From Polychytrium aggregatum (taxonomy: Eukaryota; Chytridiomycota; Chytridiomycetes; Polychytriales): 64,000 nt of DNA. The notes under the pieces are model-generated. The model did no database searches. It worked only from the letters and a program-made list of their open reading frames with translations, and was not told the DNA's origin. Positions 1,020 through 29,135 of the stretch are shown here, in pieces. The DNA lies in assembly GCF_025602895.1 (NCBI RefSeq), contig NW_026516206.1, positions 1,054,001 to 1,118,000 on the forward strand, given 5' to 3'. Numbering within the stretch: the stretch's first letter is position 1; every line of letters starts with the position of its first letter. Both the position numbers and the translations under genes were made by a program.

Positions 1020-1499
1020 GAACCCGTGTTGGAGGAAGTGAGGCGGATGGGGGTGGGTGGTTGAGTTCTCATGGCGCTCTGGTCCGCTGTGACTTTACCA
1101 TACCCACCCTCCACCACCACAGTATCGCCCGTCTTGGCGGCCGATGTTTGCCTCATACCCCTTCCCTCCTTTGCGCTTCCCTCCTTTGCGCTTCCCTCCT
1201 TCGCGCTTGCCTCCTTCGCTCCTTCGTTCTAACGCTGCCTGCCTGTCTGTCTGCACACCCAAGCCAAGCTTCCAGATATCCTTCTTGATGTACCCTATTA
1301 TTTATTTGTATGTATTGACTCCATTGTATCGACTCCATTGAACCTCTCTCTATCTATCTCTCTCCGATCCCCCAGCCGTTTTGACTCTGTAATTGGGCTG
1401 GGCTGGCCGCTTATCTCCCTCCAATGTATATGTTCTGCACTTTGACCGTGTCTCTCCCTCCCCCTGTATCCATGCATCCATAAAATACATTTACAGCGT
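1020..1499. other. Intergenic, copy A 3' flank
   Basis: No gene is seen. Positions ~1160-1215 hold an imperfect pyrimidine-rich repeat of a CTCCTTTGCGCTTCC unit. The transposable element begins just after this stretch. Confidence 0.5.
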
Positions 1500-1506
1500 A
1501 TCCACC

Positions 1507-1519
1507 AAAAAACGGGACA
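1507..1519 (+). repeat. Left terminal inverted repeat of Fanzor element
   Basis: AAAAAACGGGACA is the reverse complement of the core of 4701-4714. The identical motif opens the second copy at 28783-28795. Confidence 0.8.
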
Positions 1520-1577
1520 CCCGGGTTTTTGACCACTCATCGAATATTTTGTTACCCAATGTTATCGCGCGCTGGCC

Positions 1578-1990
1578 ATGACCATTCGCCACACAACCAC
1601 TCTCCAGAGGAAAGTATCACTCTCACTCTGCCACACTGCCATCCACCGAGCAGGTCTCTCACACAAGAGGGCAACACACCTCTACAAGTCCAAGCGACTG
1701 GATGAGCGAGTGGCACAGTTCAGGGACCAGGCCCGCTCCATCGACCCACGACGGCTCGTTTTTGTCGATGAGACGGGGATCAGGAGATCCATTTTCCCTC
1801 TCTACGGATACTCACCGAAGGGTGCTCCGCTTCGCCAGCGCAATCACATGAAACACAAGTCTGTCTCGGCTGCATTTGCAATCAACCACTCTGGTGTGCT
1901 GCATCGAGCGCCGAGGATGGTCAGTGATCTTCACCCCACCTGCTTCACCCGACTACAATCCCATCGAGAACTTCTTTGGGGTTGAGTTCC
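1578..1990 (+). pseudogene. Tc1/mariner-type transposase relic (DDE superfamily)
   Basis: The 135-aa frame carries the block RLVFVDETGIRRSIFPLYG and then GYSPKGAP, typical of the Tc1/mariner DDE catalytic core around the first conserved aspartate (VDET). The N-terminal helix-turn-helix domains are absent. After AFAINHSGV the frame is lost: the middle part with the second aspartate (normally LDN) is missing, and the last block (SPDYNPIENFFG) is seen in another frame at ~1945-1985. An internal deletion and frameshift have therefore destroyed it. It is directly followed by the promoter of the Fanzor gene, so the nuclease sits in the 3' half of a former autonomous transposon. Confidence 0.75.
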
Positions 1991-2121
1991 TCCAATTTGG
2001 GGTTTAGTCCCTCCAATCAAGCCGCCGTTCTCACGCTCAAATCCCTGGCTTGAACCTCTCGGCGATTTTTGAACAGGTCGCTTCCCCAACCAGCCCGCAA
2101 AGACGGGTTCCTGCTCTCGGG

Positions 2122-2128
2122 TATAAAT
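2122..2128 (+). promoter_or_regulatory. Putative TATA box of Fanzor gene
   Basis: TATAAAT lies about 130 bp upstream of the Fanzor ATG, inside the element, between the transposase relic and the ORF. Confidence 0.4.
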
Positions 2129-2256
2129 GCCACACCTTCGTCCTGCTGCTTTCTTCCCTCATCTCGCCTTGATCTGATCATCGCGCTATTGCACGATAAA
2201 AAAAAGTCTCTGCTCTGACCAGTACCACTGGCAGGCATCCAGCATCCTCTGCCCCC

Positions 2257-4629
2257 ATGCCTCCGAAGCGCAAGGGTACCGGTGATGGCCAGCCTCGGCC
2301 ACCCAGGCCCAAGAAAGCCAAGTCACAGTCGGAGCCTGTCTCTGGTTCGTATTCTGACCCCACGCATGCTTGGTCGTCTGTTGCTCCGTTGCTCACCACC
2401 ACTGCTTCTGCAGATCCAATGGATGTCGATCCCACCGAGCCTGGTCCATCTACTTCCTCGAGTACCGGCAAGCGATGTCGCCAGTGCGATGGCACCGATC
2501 ACGAACGCTGCAACACCAGCAAATGTCCCAAATACCGGCCCCTCAAGAGCTCTGTCGTCCCACTCGTGGATGGAAGGTCATCCGCCCCTCAGTTCAGCTG
2601 CTTCAAGCAGACGATGGATGGCTGTTGTCTCAATCCCGCTCTCCGCGACAAGATCCAGGCCACCGTCGAGGCCATGACCCAGATCCAGTTCGAGGCATCC
2701 AGGCTGCTCAACCTGCACATCCTCCGGTGCATCGAGCAGGATCTTCCCATCCCCGTCATCTCCAAGTCCACCCCTGCTTTCGTTCGCCAATGCTTCAAGA
2801 TCGTCCAGGCCGATGCCCTCTCCCCGACCGGGGACAATGAGAAATACAACGAGCATCTGGTCGCTTCCTTTCGCGACTACCAGACCACTCGGCACGCAGA
2901 CCTGCCTCCGGCCCCTCGTCTGCCTGATGGTGCTCACAGTCAGCTTCTCACACTGGCTGTCAATGCCTATGCCACCAACTGCACCACCCACCTCGACCTG
3001 GCCTACTGGCGACTCCTTCGCCGCTTCTGCGCTGCCGTCTTCCCAGCCAACAAGCATAAGCACGAAGCCATCGAGGCCTGTCTCGAGCTCTTCGAGAAAC
3101 CAGGGCAGACTCCACCCAAGGCCGATCTCGAGTTCCTCTATCCCGACTTTGGCCACGTCCTGGACGAGTTTCGGTACAGCAACGACCAGGACCGCTTCCG
3201 GGCCCTCCATCGCCTCTCACACCATGTGAGAATCCTCGCCCGGGACAAGATGGTCGACAATGTCCACAAGTGGATCGACTGTGACATGCCCGCCCTCCGA
3301 GTCACCGAGCTGCAGCGCCAGGCCAAGCTGGACGAGCTCACTGCCCAAGGCATTCCCTCCGACGACAAGAGGTTCACCACGGCCAAGTCGGAGCTCGGCA
3401 CCACCAAGTCCAAGATCAACAAGCTGGCATCCAGACTCAAGTGGGCCCTCAAGCAGCTCGCTCTCGACACTCCTCCGGCCGTGTGCACGATGGTTCCTCT
3501 ATGCACTGCCACGGCCAAGTATGTCAAGATCGACACCGTCACTCTCTGGCAACTCCTTGGTCCAAAGAAACGCCTTGGACTCACCCGGGACAAGCTCAAG
3601 GAAGAAGGTGATGACGGTGTCAACAACCAGGATCGTCTCTGGCGCAGTTGCTTCAAGCTGCGTAGTTCCCTCTTCCAAGAGCGGGACGTGAACAAGAAGC
3701 TGTTCAACTACGAGATCAGCACCGATGGCATTGGATGCACCATCGGTCTCGTCAAGTTTCTGCCCCGAACCGATCACACCGAGACCATCGAGCCTCCTCC
3801 GACTGCCGAGCAGCGCATCCAGGCCCACATCGGCGACCCAGACCCCGGTCGCACCACTTGGATTGGCATCGATCCTGGAGTCGGCTCCATCTTCACGGCA
3901 GTCATCCAAGCACCGGGCCACCAAGACGAGGTGGTCTCATTCTCCAATGGCCATTACCAGCAAATGTGTGGCCATACGTCCAACACCAAGTGGCACAACA
4001 CCATGAAGTATCGACTCAGCATCGAGACCTGGATGTCGACCACCCCCTCGCCCAAGGTGTCGTCCTCGGAGGCTTTCAAGGTCCATCTCACCCATGTCCT
4101 GCGACCGGAGCTGCGAGTGCAGCTCGACTTCCACCTTGGCAAGAAGGCCCGTCACCATCGCTTCACGGGCCACAAGAGGCGCCAAGTGGCCGTCGACAGG
4201 ATGTGCAAGGCCGTCCTGAAGCACGCCCCGATACGGACCGATGTGGTGATCGCCTTTGGCAATGCGTCATGGCGACAGGGCAAGGGCTATGCATCCAGCC
4301 CTCGGAGGCAGCGATTTGCTCGGTACTTTGAGCAGTTCGAGCACCACCGACGCCGTCCCAATCACCATCATGGAAGCGTCAAGGTAGTCTCGACGAACGA
4401 GTTCAACACCTCGCAAGTGTGCTCCAAGTGCCTGGAGCCAGTTCGGTTGGAAGGACTCGATGCGCCCAGTGTTGCGAATTCCCACTTTGTCAGGAGCTGC
4501 AAGAATCCCAGCTGCCGGACAGTGTGGAATCGCGATGTCAATGCGGCGCGCAACATGATCATAGTGTGCAGGTCGATTGTGGAGATCGGAGAGCGACCGG
4601 CGGTCTTCACTCGGAGGCTGTCAAAGTGA
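2257..4629 (+). CDS. Fanzor RNA-guided endonuclease (eukaryotic TnpB/IS200-605-type OrfB homolog)
   Basis: This is an intronless 790-aa ORF with no stop or frameshift. The N-terminus is basic and disordered (MPPKRKG, PRPKKAKS: likely nuclear localisation), then a Cys/His knuckle C-x2-C-x4-H-x2-C-x4-C (KRCRQCDGTDHERCNTSKC, ~residues 73-92). The middle ~130-500 is helical (recognition/wedge region). RuvC-I is WIGIDPGVGSIFTAV (~535-550, catalytic Asp in IDPG). The next block VVIAFGNASWRQGKG (~665-680) is the Fanzor-type rearranged RuvC-II area. A zinc finger CSKC...CKNPSC (~722-760) leads into RuvC-III NRDVNAARNM with the last catalytic Asp. Known for the family: RNA-guided DNA cleavage using an omegaRNA encoded near the 3' end of the element. 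Inference: active-looking nuclease. The length is within the range of Fanzor1 proteins; Fanzors are known from chytrids such as Spizellomyces. Confidence 0.9.
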   Translation: MPPKRKGTGDGQPRPPRPKKAKSQSEPVSGSYSDPTHAWSSVAPLLTTTASADPMDVDPTEPGPSTSSSTGKRCRQCDGTDHERCNTSKCPKYRPLKSSVVPLVDGRSSAPQFSCFKQTMDGCCLNPALRDKIQATVEAMTQIQFEASRLLNLHILRCIEQDLPIPVISKSTPAFVRQCFKIVQADALSPTGDNEKYNEHLVASFRDYQTTRHADLPPAPRLPDGAHSQLLTLAVNAYATNCTTHLDLAYWRLLRRFCAAVFPANKHKHEAIEACLELFEKPGQTPPKADLEFLYPDFGHVLDEFRYSNDQDRFRALHRLSHHVRILARDKMVDNVHKWIDCDMPALRVTELQRQAKLDELTAQGIPSDDKRFTTAKSELGTTKSKINKLASRLKWALKQLALDTPPAVCTMVPLCTATAKYVKIDTVTLWQLLGPKKRLGLTRDKLKEEGDDGVNNQDRLWRSCFKLRSSLFQERDVNKKLFNYEISTDGIGCTIGLVKFLPRTDHTETIEPPPTAEQRIQAHIGDPDPGRTTWIGIDPGVGSIFTAVIQAPGHQDEVVSFSNGHYQQMCGHTSNTKWHNTMKYRLSIETWMSTTPSPKVSSSEAFKVHLTHVLRPELRVQLDFHLGKKARHHRFTGHKRRQVAVDRMCKAVLKHAPIRTDVVIAFGNASWRQGKGYASSPRRQRFARYFEQFEHHRRRPNHHHGSVKVVSTNEFNTSQVCSKCLEPVRLEGLDAPSVANSHFVRSCKNPSCRTVWNRDVNAARNMIIVCRSIVEIGERPAVFTRRLSK

Positions 4630-4700
4630 TCTGTTTTATTTCTTGTGGCTTTGCTAGACGCGAGCACAGCACATACTACTGTTCATGGAAACGGCTATGT

Positions 4701-4714
4701 TGTCCCGTTTTTTT
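4701..4714 (+). repeat. Right terminal inverted repeat of Fanzor element
   Basis: TGTCCCGTTTTTTT is inverted relative to 1507-1519. The same motif lies at 29051-29064 in the second copy. In both, CTGAATAAAGTGTA follows before the sequences diverge. Confidence 0.8.
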
Positions 4715-4717
4715 CTG

Positions 4718-4723
4718 AATAAA
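4718..4723 (+). terminator. AATAAA polyadenylation signal at the element's right end
   Basis: The AATAAA hexamer is 88 bp after the Fanzor stop and within the last 14 bp shared by both copies. It may end the Fanzor mRNA, and could supply poly(A) signals to genes next to insertions. Confidence 0.4.
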
Positions 4724-4728
4724 GTGTA

Positions 4729-7936: not shown

Positions 7937-10206
7937 ATGTCCATGTCTTCGATGTCGTTTGCGTCTCCCCAGGCGGACGCCTCGCTCTCACCGGGCCAGC
8001 TTGTACGTTAGTTCTTCTCTCCTGCTCCCTCCCTTCGTTTCTCCACCCCCCCACCCAAAGGGCGGTACCAGAGCCAAGGCGCTTTCTTAAATCGGGTCCT
8101 TTTCGCCCTGTCCCCCCTTCTCCCTCCCTTGTCTGTCGTCGGTCTGCTGTCGGTCACTCTGTCTCCACCACCGGTCTCCTCCTCCCCCGTCCTTGATCTC
8201 CATCGACCCAAATCGATCCGCCCTGTCTCCCACAGTAGATCGTACCGGTGATCTCATCCTCAGCTCCTCCCAGATAACGACTTGGGTCGGTTGGAAGGGG
8301 GGTGTCTGGGCAGGAAGGGAGGGGGAGGCACTTTTTAGTCATTTCCGCCGTGATCACACTTTCCACGATCACACGCGAACGCCATAGATCACTCCTGAGC
8401 ACTTTGGAGCCCAGGCTAGCACAATCTCACCGACCTCCCCCCTGATCGCACGCTCGCAGTGCGTGGCCACCATGGACATCCGCCCTGACTAACCCGAGCC
8501 CTGTATTCGCCACCGCCCGCCTTACCCAACACTACCAGGAACAAAAGCTCGATCGCTACATGCCAGGCGATACGAATCCGTACATCAGCGAAGTCTCTGC
8601 CGAGTCAAACTCAGTGATCTACCCGTCCTCCAGCCCGATGCGTCCGGATCAGATTCATTCGGCTTTCATGGGCCAAGTGCAGGTCTCCCCAGGCGACCAC
8701 GAGCGGATGCCACCCCATCTCTCGCCCCTTTCTCCGGCGTCGCCTCCCAGCATTTCCAACACCCCCACTCTGGGCTGCCACATCCACCCGTCGATTCATG
8801 CCATGCACCCCCAGACCATCAACCCCCTGCAGCTCAATGCCCCAATGTCGCTCGCCAGCTCCCGCCCCATCTCCATGTCGGCATGCGCGGCCTGCCGAGG
8901 CCAGTCCCACATCCACACCCACTCCCACACCCACACCCACACCAACCTCGCCCACTCCCACTCCCACATCCACTCCTATCCCCATCCCCACTCCCACTCC
9001 CACTCCTATCCCCTGCCTGTTGCCCACCCCCATGCACTCGGCTCTCTCCAGGCACCCGGTTTGATGTCCCAAAAGACGCTTCCGGCCTCGTCGCTGCACT
9101 TCCACCCCAACCCGTCCATCCACCCCCTCTCGATCCACCACCCCCAAGCCATCCTCCGGTCCGATGTCCACTTGCCGGCCCGAGACGACGCCATGTCGAT
9201 CGAATCGGCCAGCCTCGGGTCTCCAAACCCCTTCAAGATCGGCACCTCGCCCGAGACATCGCTGACGGTCGAGCGAACCCCCTCGGAGCTGTATGGCGGC
9301 AGCGGGCCGTTCTTCCTGACGCTCGGGGACATTGGAGCACCGTTCAGCAGCGATCTGGAAGCCTACGAGATCGGTGGCTACTCTGCGAGCGATATGTCGT
9401 CGCTGGCGTATGGCGGGGCGTTCCCGATGAATGTCCCTGTCATGGCGACCGCACAGGCACCGACTCCGATGACCACTCCGACCCTCACTCCGACCCCCAC
9501 TCCGGCCACGGCAGCAACTATCACTCCCACAGCCATCTCGGTGTATTCCGGCGATATCTCTGACGCACCCGCGGCACCAATTGTGTCCGGTAGCTCTAGC
9601 ACCCGCAGCTCGTTCTTGAAGAAGGATCTTGGCTTCTCGACTGCTTCCGAGATCCTCTCCAAGCTCGTCCACAGCACCGGCCGCGAAAGCATCGGGTCGC
9701 GGCGCAGCCAGGTCAAAGTTGCATGCAACCACTGCAAGAAGGCGTGCAAACGCTGCGATAGCAACCGCCCATGCAGTCGGTGCGTCCGCCTGGATTATAC
9801 GGACTGTGCTGATGCGCCTCGAAAGGAGCGCAAGCGCATCAAGCGGAGCATCAAGACTCCATCGATGGAGTCTCTCACGAGCGACATCGAGACAGCATCG
9901 CAATACACCACCGCCACCGCCACAACCGACACCAGAGACACCGACTCCATTTCCATGCTTTCCACCAGCGAGTTCTCCGAAGGCGAATCGACCTACCGCT
10001 CCGTCTCCATCAAGACCCGGCCATCGCTGACCTCCATTTGCTCGATGTTCGAAGATCCGGTGTCTCCGCCCCCGATCCACATGCCTCTTCGCGATTATGC
10101 TGAGCCCATGGACAGCATGCCCCAGACCCCTGAAGAATTTGACAGCCTGCTCATGAATCCCAATCAGTTTGAATCGTTTTTCCCCGAGGGTGGCTATCGC
10201 TTCTAA
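7937..10206 (+). CDS. Zn2Cys6 zinc-cluster transcription factor, copy B
   Basis: The model joins 7937-8002 and 8539-10206 (577 aa). The first exon MSMSSMSFASPQ...PGQL ends at GTACGT, the intron ends ACCAG, and both keep phase 0 into EQKLDRYMPGD, so I prefer this start to the ATG at 8560. A His-rich tract (HIHTHSHTHTHTN..., ~residues 135-175) is followed by the segment shared with copy A. The DNA-binding domain near 418-445 reads ACNHCKKACKRC...CSRC...DC, i.e. C-x2-C-x6-C-x5-C-x2-C-x7-C, followed by basic RKERKRIKR. This is the canonical fungal binuclear cluster; NHCKKA...RPCSRC resembles the Ert1/AcuM-type subgroup. The C-terminal 130 residues are acidic and Ser/Thr-rich, a likely activation domain. 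Target genes are unknown. An AATAAA is at 10932. Confidence 0.85.
8899..9012 (+). repeat. In-frame CAC/CCACTC-type repeat encoding a His/Ser/Thr/Pro-rich tract
   Basis: The DNA repeats CACTCCCACACC-like units and codes alternating His with Thr, Ser or Pro. It may bind metal or be a slippage-prone spacer. It lies upstream of the segment shared with copy A, so I cannot tell whether copy A has it. Confidence 0.6.
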
Positions 10207-27300: not shown

Positions 27301-28657
27301 GGACTTTTACAAAAAGTTCCTGTACGAGGCGCTGCCGGTCGAGTCGCACCTCGACCACTTCCTGCATGACCACTTCAACGCCGAGGTTGTCACCAAAACC
27401 ATCGAGAACAAGCAGGAGGCCGTCGACTATCTCACTTGGACATTCCTCTACCGCCGCCTGACCCTCAACCCGAACTACTACAACCTGCAGGGCGTCACGC
27501 ACCGCCACATCTCGGACTATCTCTCCGAGCTCGTCGAGACGACCCTCGAGGACCTGGCCAACTCAAAGTGCATCGAGCTCGAGGACGACAACATGGGGCC
27601 CCTCAACCTGGGCATGATTGCGGCCTACTACTACATCAAATACGAGACCATCGAGCTCTTCTCGATGTCGCTGACCCAGAAGACCAAGCACCGTGGTCTG
27701 CTGGAGATTATCGCTGCGGCGGCAGAGTACTTTAGCGTGCCCATTCGCCACCACGAAGACAGGGTGCTCAAGCAGATCTACGACCGGCTCCCTGTCAAGG
27801 TCGAGAACCCCAACTTTATGGATCCACACGTCAAGACCAACATCCTGCTTCAGGCGCACTTCTCGCGCATCCAGCTGCCACCTGATCTGGAATCCGACCA
27901 GAGATCGATCCTCACGCGAGTGATTGCCCTGATCCAGGCTGCCGTTGATGTGATCTCGTCCAACGGCTGGCTCGACCCTGCGGTCACGGCCATGGAGCTC
28001 TCGCAAATGTGCGTCCAGGCGGTTTGGAACCGCGACTCGGTGCTCCGACAAGTGCCGCACTTGACGCTGCCTGTGATCGAACGGCTCAAGGGCAAGGGCG
28101 TCGAGGACATTTTCCAGCTCATGGAGATGGACGACGATGACCGCAACCAGGCCCTGGGCATGGACGGCAAGCGCATGGCTGACATTGCTCGGTTTGCAAA
28201 CCGGTACCCCAATATCGAGTTGTCGTTCGATCTCTCGGAGGACGAGGCACACCAGGGCGACATGGTGACCCTCAAGGTTGTGCTCGAGCGCGATGTCGAC
28301 GAGGACGACGAGAACAGCAGCGGCCCCACCGACGTCGGTCCTGTAATCGCACCGCACTTCCCCGTCAAGAAGGATGAGGGCTGGTGGCTTGTTGTCGGCA
28401 ACCCCAAGGACAAGACGCTGCTGGCGATCAAGCGCCTGACACTGCAGCGGAAGCTGACTGTCAGCCTGGACTTTGCCATCCCGGAGAGCGTCCTCGGCGA
28501 CGTCGACTTCAAGCTCTACTTTATGTGCGACTCGTACACCGGCGTCGATCAAGAGTACGACCTGCCGATCAAGGTTCTCGAGGGCAACGACGCCGGCGAG
28601 GACGATGACGACGGCGACGAAGGCGACGACAGCGACGAGGAGATGGAGGACGCCTAG
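21306..28657 (+). CDS. BRR2: Pre-mRNA-splicing helicase BRR2 (U5 snRNP, Ski2-like, two helicase cassettes)
   Basis: Exons 21306-21592, 21863-23276, 23481-26021 and 26231-28657 join in phase to 2222 aa, close to yeast (2163) and human (2136). The N-terminus ([26 protein letters not shown]) and the block [13 protein letters not shown] match the Brr2 N-terminal region; an acidic stretch follows. Cassette 1: Walker [10 protein letters not shown] (~567), DEVH box [15 protein letters not shown] (~671), motif [14 protein letters not shown], then a winged-helix and a Sec63 domain. Cassette 2: Walker [10 protein letters not shown] (~1414), [13 protein letters not shown] (~1511), motif [15 protein letters not shown] (HANRP-like region in animals), second Sec63 domain, acidic tail. 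It unwinds U4/U6 during spliceosome activation in the nucleus. Both Walker A motifs are interrupted by an intron between Lys and Thr. Confidence 0.97.
23287..23346 (+). repeat. 9-bp tandem repeat (TTGCTGTCG)n in BRR2 intron 2
   Basis: There are six to seven near-perfect copies of a TTGCTGTCG unit, starting 10 bp after the donor of the intron that splits the first Walker A motif. The repeat is a multiple of three and leaves the frame open if the intron is retained. Confidence 0.8.
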
Positions 28658-28765
28658 GAATTTTGCCGTGTCTGGTGGCCCCGTGGCCAGGGTGGGGGAG
28701 CGGGAGGGTGGGGACCGCACGCAACACAGCGCATTGAGAACATGTGACGCAGCCCCGAGCTCCAC

Positions 28766-28771
28766 AATAAA
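28766..28771 (+). terminator. AATAAA polyadenylation signal, BRR2
   Basis: An AATAAA hexamer lies 109 bp after the BRR2 stop, a few bases before the inserted short Fanzor-element copy. Confidence 0.5.
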
Positions 28772-28775
28772 GGCA

Positions 28776-29078
28776 ATCCAATAAAAAACGGGACACCCGG
28801 GTTTTTGACCATTCATCGAATATTTTGTTACCCAATGTTATCGCGCGCTGGCCATGACCATTCGCCGGACAGTGTGGAATCGCGACGTCAATGCGGCGCG
28901 CAACATGATCGCAGTGTGCAGGTCGATTGTGGAGATCGGAGAGCGACCGGCGGTCTTCACTCGGAGGCTGCCAAAGTGATCTGTTTTATTTCTTGTGGCT
29001 TTGCTAGACGCGAGCACAGCACATACTACTGTTCATGGAAACGGCTATATTGTCCCGTTTTTTTCTGAATAAAGTGTA
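28776..29078 (+). mobile_element. MITE-like internal-deletion derivative of the Fanzor element
   Basis: Positions 28783-28866 match 1507-1590 with one difference, and 28864-29078 match 4514-4728 with about five. The two parts are joined at a shared GCC triplet, so ~2.9 kb of the full element (transposase relic and most of the Fanzor gene) is gone. The left and right inverted repeats are intact and TA lies on both sides (28782-28783 and 29077-29078). What is kept of Fanzor starts at the last zinc-finger/RuvC-III codons (RTVWNRDVNAARNM) and runs through the stop, the 3' UTR and the right end. It is inserted ~120 bp downstream of the BRR2 stop and within its likely 3' UTR or termination zone. 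Confidence 0.88.
28910..29078 (+). ncRNA. Predicted stand-alone omegaRNA-like region in the short element (guide would start at ~29079)
   Basis: This segment corresponds to 4560-4728 of the full element, where a Fanzor omegaRNA scaffold is expected. It is the main internal sequence that survived the deletion. The flanking DNA differs from that of copy 1, so a transcript would carry a different guide. Inference only; expression and folding were not tested. Confidence 0.3.
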
Positions 29079-29135
29079 AAGGACGACTGAAAACTAGGGG
29101 CGAGAAAGGCGGCCGCGGAGTGGGGATGGTGATGG

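Follow-up and report, generated by a model that had tools for sequence, protein, structure and literature searches.

MITEs that mariner elements give rise to by internal deletion are short deletion copies with TIRs and TA at their ends, and we know of no mariner-derived MITE with an RNA-guided nuclease or a guide region.

The closest described system is that of the chytrid Spizellomyces punctatus, for which the accessible parts of Saito et al. (2023, PMC10432273) count 134 ghost loci beside 42 that carry an Fz gene, complete or partial. According to the same parts of that article, the scaffolds of four ghost loci support editing in human cells, the authors suggest that ghosts act in trans, a conserved CA precedes the left IR of SpuFz1, whose measured TAM is CATA, and a figure legend compares the ghost architecture of three further species; the S. 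punctatus IR would accordingly start with TA. Fanzor1-carrying Mariner elements that, like the parent element treated here, combine a Mariner transposase, Fanzor1, TIRs and TA duplications were described by Bao and Jurka (2013, PMC3627910), in the accessible text of which no ORF-less short derivative was met. For bacterial IS200/605 elements, the part of a preprint available to us (PMC11870625) reports that the TnpB nuclease cuts the empty site and that the element is copied back. That retention uses a guide recorded from the flank, as is likewise proposed here, and has been demonstrated for nuclease-carrying elements, whereas for Fanzor in the present case it is a proposal only.

The element analyzed here lies in a stretch of 64,000 nucleotides from the chytrid Polychytrium aggregatum (the window). 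Like the Spu-1 ghosts, as far as the accessible description goes (PMC10432273), it keeps the ends of a Fanzor1 element and the candidate right-end omegaRNA region, has lost the ORF, exists in many copies and has conserved bases before its left end, which in Spu-1 agree with the TAM. Unlike the Spu-1 ghosts, which are ~550 nt long and whose IRs show seven differences from the IRs of the Fz loci, it is the product of a single deletion, is ~97% identical to its parent and shares sites with full copies; moreover, its parent bears a transposase as well as Fanzor, whereas no transposase was found between the IRs of Spu-1. The initial annotation of this DNA, which knew of no such system in fungi, was mistaken on that point, given the ghost omegaRNA elements published for S. 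punctatus (PMC10432273, accessible parts), and its reading of the short copy as a non-autonomous guide locus is plausible and not new in kind. The most interesting addition over the published ghosts is a set of sites that hold two forms of the element. Our preferred reading, to which we assign a probability of about 0.6, is that the short form is a ghost of a Tc1/mariner-Fanzor1 element, that it supplies a guide RNA to a Fanzor acting in trans and that it reached part of its sites via gene conversion. A presumed autonomous parent, a single deletion and two-form sites are all found within one genome, that of an organism which also carries open nuclease and transposase frames, and the question of what Fanzor is for becomes testable through a predicted TAM (TTA) and a candidate omegaRNA and guides at many sites.

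The short copy and its parent element

The short copy occupies window positions 28770 to 29076 on the forward strand (307 bp), with borders, fixed by aligning 30 fetched short copies and by the ends found at 60 loci, that read TA|CAGGCAATCC...AATAAAGTG|TA. The initial annotation had rightly recognized a short deletion derivative with TA on both sides and two blocks that match the full copy of the window; its borders (28776 to 29078) and its left end of 84 bp have been corrected to those given here and to ~97 bp. The left TA (28768 to 28769), which is preceded by A at this copy and represents an inferred target site duplication, has its counterpart in the right TA at 29077 to 29078. The retained left end (28770 to 28866, 97 bp, forward strand) comprises the left TIR, a leader and the transposase start codon, and the retained right end (28864 to 29076, 213 bp, forward strand) comprises the final Fanzor C-terminal codons, the stop and a 3′ non-coding region of 97 bases to the border. 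The two ends share the GCC at 28864 to 28866, the microhomology already proposed, which corresponds to window positions 1588-1590 and 4514-4516 in the full copy. Identity to the window full copy, previously put at ~97%, is 96.7% over 91 bp of the left end and 97.7% over 213 bp of the right end. To judge from this alignment, it is shown that one internal deletion at the GCC microhomology took out most of the transposase and Fanzor genes. The junction joins both reading frames into an in-frame fusion of 41 aa (MTIR + RTVWNRDVNAARN...RRLPK; 28854 to 28979, forward strand), which runs from the transposase start into the C-terminal codons of Fanzor. The 30 short copies with the best scores comprise 25 distinct ones, and all 25 have this frame open. 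This openness was considered as a sign of selection and the idea was dropped, since exchange with full copies explains it. The short form thus has the features of a MITE, being short and multi-copy with TIRs present, the transposase gene absent and a mini-ORF only, as well as those of a ghost element in the sense of Saito et al. (2023), with Fanzor-element ends and no Fanzor ORF.

The window also contains a full-type member of the family at 1494 to 4726 (3233 bp, forward strand), whose transposase frame is truncated (1578 to 1985, forward strand, 135 aa) and whose Fanzor1 ORF is open (2257 to 4629, forward strand, 790 aa). On the basis of its domains and ends, the parent is a Tc1/mariner element carrying Fanzor1. 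The longest copies, of 3.74 kb, can encode both a Tc1/mariner transposase and Fanzor, and the transposase of locus L034 (310 aa) matches DDE_3 (PF13358) at 2.8e-24. The expectation that a Fanzor is encoded elsewhere in the genome was borne out: among the 30 full copies fetched, those with the best scores out of 40 and including one haplotype pair, the 790-aa Fanzor frame is open in 23 and the 310-aa transposase frame in 10. PF13358 itself has 335 first-look places in the genome, of which 150 were scored, and many of these have a 325-aa open frame. The family has TIR cores ACGGGACA/TGTCCCGT, left and right TIRs that are unlike each other (CAGGCAATCCAAT vs CACTTTATTCAGA) and a right flank that starts with TA in 47 of 49 cases, so that a DDE_3-type transposase, TIRs and a TA duplication, the last deduced from occupied sites as no empty site was seen, place it with Tc1/mariner.

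The window Fanzor contains the Pfam TNB domain (PF07282, 1.7e-9) and the Fanzor1 C-terminal motif D-X(125-275)-[TS][TS]XX-C4 zinc finger-X-RD as defined in the accessible part of Bao and Jurka (2013, PMC3627910), with WIGIDPG from residue 535, NTSQVC from 717 and NRDVN from 758. Kinship with Fanzor1 also emerges from a two-sequence C-terminal profile, built from the window Fanzor and that of a second family 64% identical to it; the two top hits of this profile among solved structures are SpuFz1 (8e-4) and GtFz1 (0.018). The single full Fanzor sequence gave nothing at 0.001, and no Fanzor up to E 10, when compared with solved structures, and its AlphaFold2 model from one sequence, considered with regard to the bilobed RuvC fold of Fanzor1, has a mean pLDDT of 38.

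In the stretch 28657-28780 of the window, ~110 bp separate the stop of a BRR2-like helicase frame from the short copy, which lies downstream of it. The flanks of the short copy when joined read CACAATAAAGGACG, which places its insertion in an AATAAA that may be a polyA signal; owing to a variant first base, A for C, the element again gives AATAAA at the left border. Separately from the Fanzor finding, the window has a 300-bp exact direct repeat at 1-300 and 9062-9361, 9 kb apart.

Genomic copies and the candidate omegaRNA region

The genome searched comprises 64.7 Mb in 418 contigs and contains the left end at 395 places (≤3 mismatches) and the right-end consensus at 338. As anticipated, the short form is multi-copy: the junction of the window copy, which defines the 303-type, occurs 51 times at ≤2 mismatches, both haplotype copies counted, against 0 for a reversed-pattern control, and among the listed matches to the short copy (40 of 1151 candidates scored), 40 of 41 start at base 1 or 3 and extend to base 303, with 93-100% identity, which together place the short copy far beyond chance. 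A second junction, of a 1.1-kb type, was found 16 times. For 70 of 100 listed exact left ends (out of the 395), a partner right end was sought by position: in 47 cases it lay at a distance of 3.1-3.7 kb, 4 copies belonged to the 303-type and 5 to other short forms, and for 14 no right end was listed. Seven of those 14 were partly read (L066-L072), two are known copies (L046 and L048) and two lie at contig ends; the remaining three (C13:458181, C72 and C93) fell outside the reading, and the one on contig C93 carries the 1.1-kb junction. L069 and L071, one site on two contigs, have a left end and no right end within ~880 bp beyond, and L068 is interrupted by an apparent further insertion. A short element with both ends that lacks the right region, which would have spoken against a guide function, was absent from the nine of these 14 left ends examined; this is weak evidence, because only part of the left ends was covered and four right breakpoints are known, which keep roughly 450, 213, 165 and 160 bp and make retention of 160 bp unsurprising by itself.

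The short form keeps, besides the TIRs and the transposase start region, the 3′ end, which is where other Fanzor1 elements encode their omegaRNA scaffold, in agreement with the earlier proposal that the ends and a candidate omegaRNA region were retained. By comparison with Saito et al. (2023), the candidate scaffold core would span 28980 to 29076 (forward strand), and its 5′ limit may fall within the ORF. In our preferred reading, the omegaRNA would run to the border so that the flank serves as guide, predicted for the window copy as the first ~15 nt of the right flank (29079 to 29093, forward strand) by analogy with SpuFz1, whose guide has 14-15 nt, and Fanzor made from other copies would bind the RNA of the short copy.

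The folding evidence varies between copies. The common 142-nt right-end variant has a fold z of -2.68, better than all 200 shuffles, and the 142 nt of L034 a z of -2.08, better than 195 of 200, while the 99 nt of the window copy (z -0.80) are little better than shuffles and the right end of the second family does not stand out from them (z -0.02 and -1.05). One pair of a right-end hairpin shows uncompensated variation and is broken in the window copy, and the right-end region has no Rfam match at E≤1. A hint, seen by eye, of covariation in a guide-proximal stem between the two families was dropped, as the alignment of the left arm is ambiguous and variants are often uncompensated. Self-targeting guides were likewise dropped: 0 of 53 first-16-nt flanks match the element exactly and 2 of 53 do so at ≤2 mismatches. 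The case for a candidate omegaRNA locus is built on position, open nuclease frames, the TTA signal described below and the published ghosts.

An ordinary MITE, that is, a deletion derivative moved in trans by a mariner transposase, with no functional omegaRNA and with its right part retained by accident or as a requirement in cis for transposition, would account for the TIRs and the TA on both sides, for the existence of copies with an open transposase frame, for retention of at least ~160 bp given four right breakpoints only and for the unremarkable fold of the window copy. We nonetheless regard it as unlikely, since ghost scaffolds of similar layout are functional elsewhere (PMC10432273, accessible parts) and since it leaves the one-sided T before the left TA unexplained unless the transposase distinguishes left from right.

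A second family (family B), whose Fanzor C-terminus is the one 64% identical to the window Fanzor, adjoins L034. It was seen at L034:4055-4574, L073-L092 and L103-L112, its TIR is related to that of the present family (family A), and its end pattern occurs at 435 places at ≤3 mismatches. A repeated flank start, AGTAT..., was read by eye in 13 of 19 family B right ends, and the right flank is present at 106 places at ≤2 mismatches. Homing of family B into a repeated target was considered and dropped: at 10 of 10 further places, also read by eye, the flank already adjoins the right end of a family B copy. It therefore probably belongs to a larger repeat, inside which family B may lie. The family A copies L034, L049, L040 and L047 are beside or inside diverged Fanzor or transposase fragments, as nested insertions.

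The base before the left TA

At 54 distinct sites, for which nine pairs sharing a left flank were counted once and nine of 72 loci without a recognized left end were excluded (L008, L018, L028, L031, L036, L053, L062, L067 and L072), T precedes the left TA 48 times, A 4 times and C twice. T stands there in 24 of 26 short sites (20 of 22 among those of the 303-type) and in 24 of 28 others, and T-TA was also seen at L008, L031, L036 and L053, outside the 54-site count. On the right side, 7 of 47 sites have the mirror base, an A following the TA, an asymmetry with a Fisher probability of 2e-14. Conserved bases beside the left end, a mark of published ghosts, are a property of 24 of the 26 short sites and not of the window copy, which reads ATA rather than TTA at its left border.

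The one-sided T, together with the conserved CA that agrees with the TAM in S. punctatus, leads us to predict TTA as the TAM of the Fanzor encoded here. Under our preferred reading, Fanzor would cut the unoccupied version of a site beside this TTA, and the element would then be restored from the other chromosome. The T could, on the other hand, be a base of the element or a target preference of a transposase aware of left and right; the unlike TIRs do make the two ends distinguishable, and no empty allele was found. To our knowledge, target choice of Tc1/mariner is symmetric, and a transposase blind to its ends would be expected to leave a symmetric pattern. Another base is found at 6 of the 54 sites, and the CA before the left end in Spizellomyces matches a measured TAM (PMC10432273, accessible parts), which together make an origin of the T in the transposase or the element quite improbable in our estimation. 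The T at short sites may itself descend from full copies that were replaced, and for this reason it does not by itself prove that cutting is guided by ghosts. On the right side, T is the first base after the TA in 11 of 26 short copies vs 0 of 21 full copies (Fisher 5e-4, uncorrected for the ~16 positions viewed).

Sites holding short and full forms

In places, the assembly seems to contain both haplotypes, as suggested by the near-identical collinear contigs C246 and C398, with two sites ~30.5 kb apart on each, and by the collinear pair C384 and C399, on which two junctions of the 1.1-kb type and one of the 303 type recur at the same spacing. Queries with joined flanks covered 16 of 25 short loci and 20 of 30 full loci, the short sites L015, L018 and L028 being left out. 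Ten of the 16 short sites matched themselves only, weak partial matches aside, and six matched a second place, none of which was an empty allele. At L004, L016, L027 and L030 the flanks of the second place are ~3.6-3.7 kb apart, the spacing of a full-length element; the ends of these alleles were read and their length is given by the flank spacing. The second place of L026 has the 1.1-kb spacing, and that of L023 (~0.28 kb) is a short form that has undergone another deletion and contains filler resembling that of L065. With L002/L043 as a fifth short/full pair, 12 of 25 distinct short sites have a second allele, which is full-length in 5, 1.1-kb in 1, ~280-bp in 1 and short in 5. The short form had been proposed to carry a new guide; this is only partly right, as at five sites it shares its site, and hence its guide, with a full-length allele. 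Among the queried full sites, 12 of 20 have a second place, and where both flanks are visible, in 3, their spacing is 3.4-3.7 kb; there was no match across joined flanks among 63 hits for the 20 sites (40 of 974 candidates scored). The lack of empty alleles was rejected as proof of homing, because it is equally expected if the insertions predate the haplotype split.

Within the five short/full pairs, 3 of 900 flank positions differ, against 32 of 1552 in the shared element parts (p 2.7e-4). Of 26 differences in the right end, 21 fall ≤95 bp from the junction (p 2e-4), the outlying ones being at 167-186 in L002, 156 in L027 and 129 in L004. Three of the five pairs show no difference in the left end; L030 (at 30-44) and L027 have three each. 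A left-end variant, GTGG for CAGG, is confined among flank-listed loci to L002/L043. Several polymorphisms of the right end are common to short and full copies in similar proportions (A/G 13:12 vs 16:13; T/C 17:8 vs 18:11), whereas three junction-adjacent sites differ between the short and the full form (A in 7 of 25 vs 2 of 29; A in 3 vs 0; G in 7 vs 1), and in a weakly resolved tree of right ends the two forms are intermixed. Clustering of differences near the junction is the trace expected of a conversion tract that carried the junction from another copy and, with two forms at one site, it indicates spread at least partly by gene conversion. The short form thus appears, from these comparisons, to replace the long form in place, and in our preferred reading it would have been copied by gene conversion into sites already holding a full element. 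The direction from full to short is the likelier one, as long copies are the commoner form. In-place replacement of full Fanzor elements by ghosts was not found in the titles and abstract beginnings of the open-access papers listed for Fanzor.

It may also be that the short form never transposes and that all short sites are full sites converted ectopically or by recurrent deletion. The 7 of 12 second alleles that are full-length (5), 1.1-kb (1) or ~280-bp (1) fit that account, as do the clustering near the junction and the interleaving of short and full right ends in the weakly resolved tree. Set against these are the 5 of 12 two-allele sites that are short on both copies, the 10 of 16 queried short sites without a second copy and the 3 of 25 outside the check, and we consider a complete absence of transposition a real possibility, if a somewhat improbable one. 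A bolder variant would make the short form an RNA-only hyperparasite, with breaks at Fanzor sites repaired from short copies so as to yield guide-only sites that keep the address and lose the nuclease gene; the breaks would come from excision by the transposase, followed by Fanzor cutting of the restored TTA site. This we hold to be highly doubtful, and conversion at part of the sites, as in our preferred reading, is what we retain. One further short copy, L015, has ~170 bp of left flank in common with the full copy L040 at 96% identity, with different right flanks, for which ectopic recombination between elements is a possible origin.
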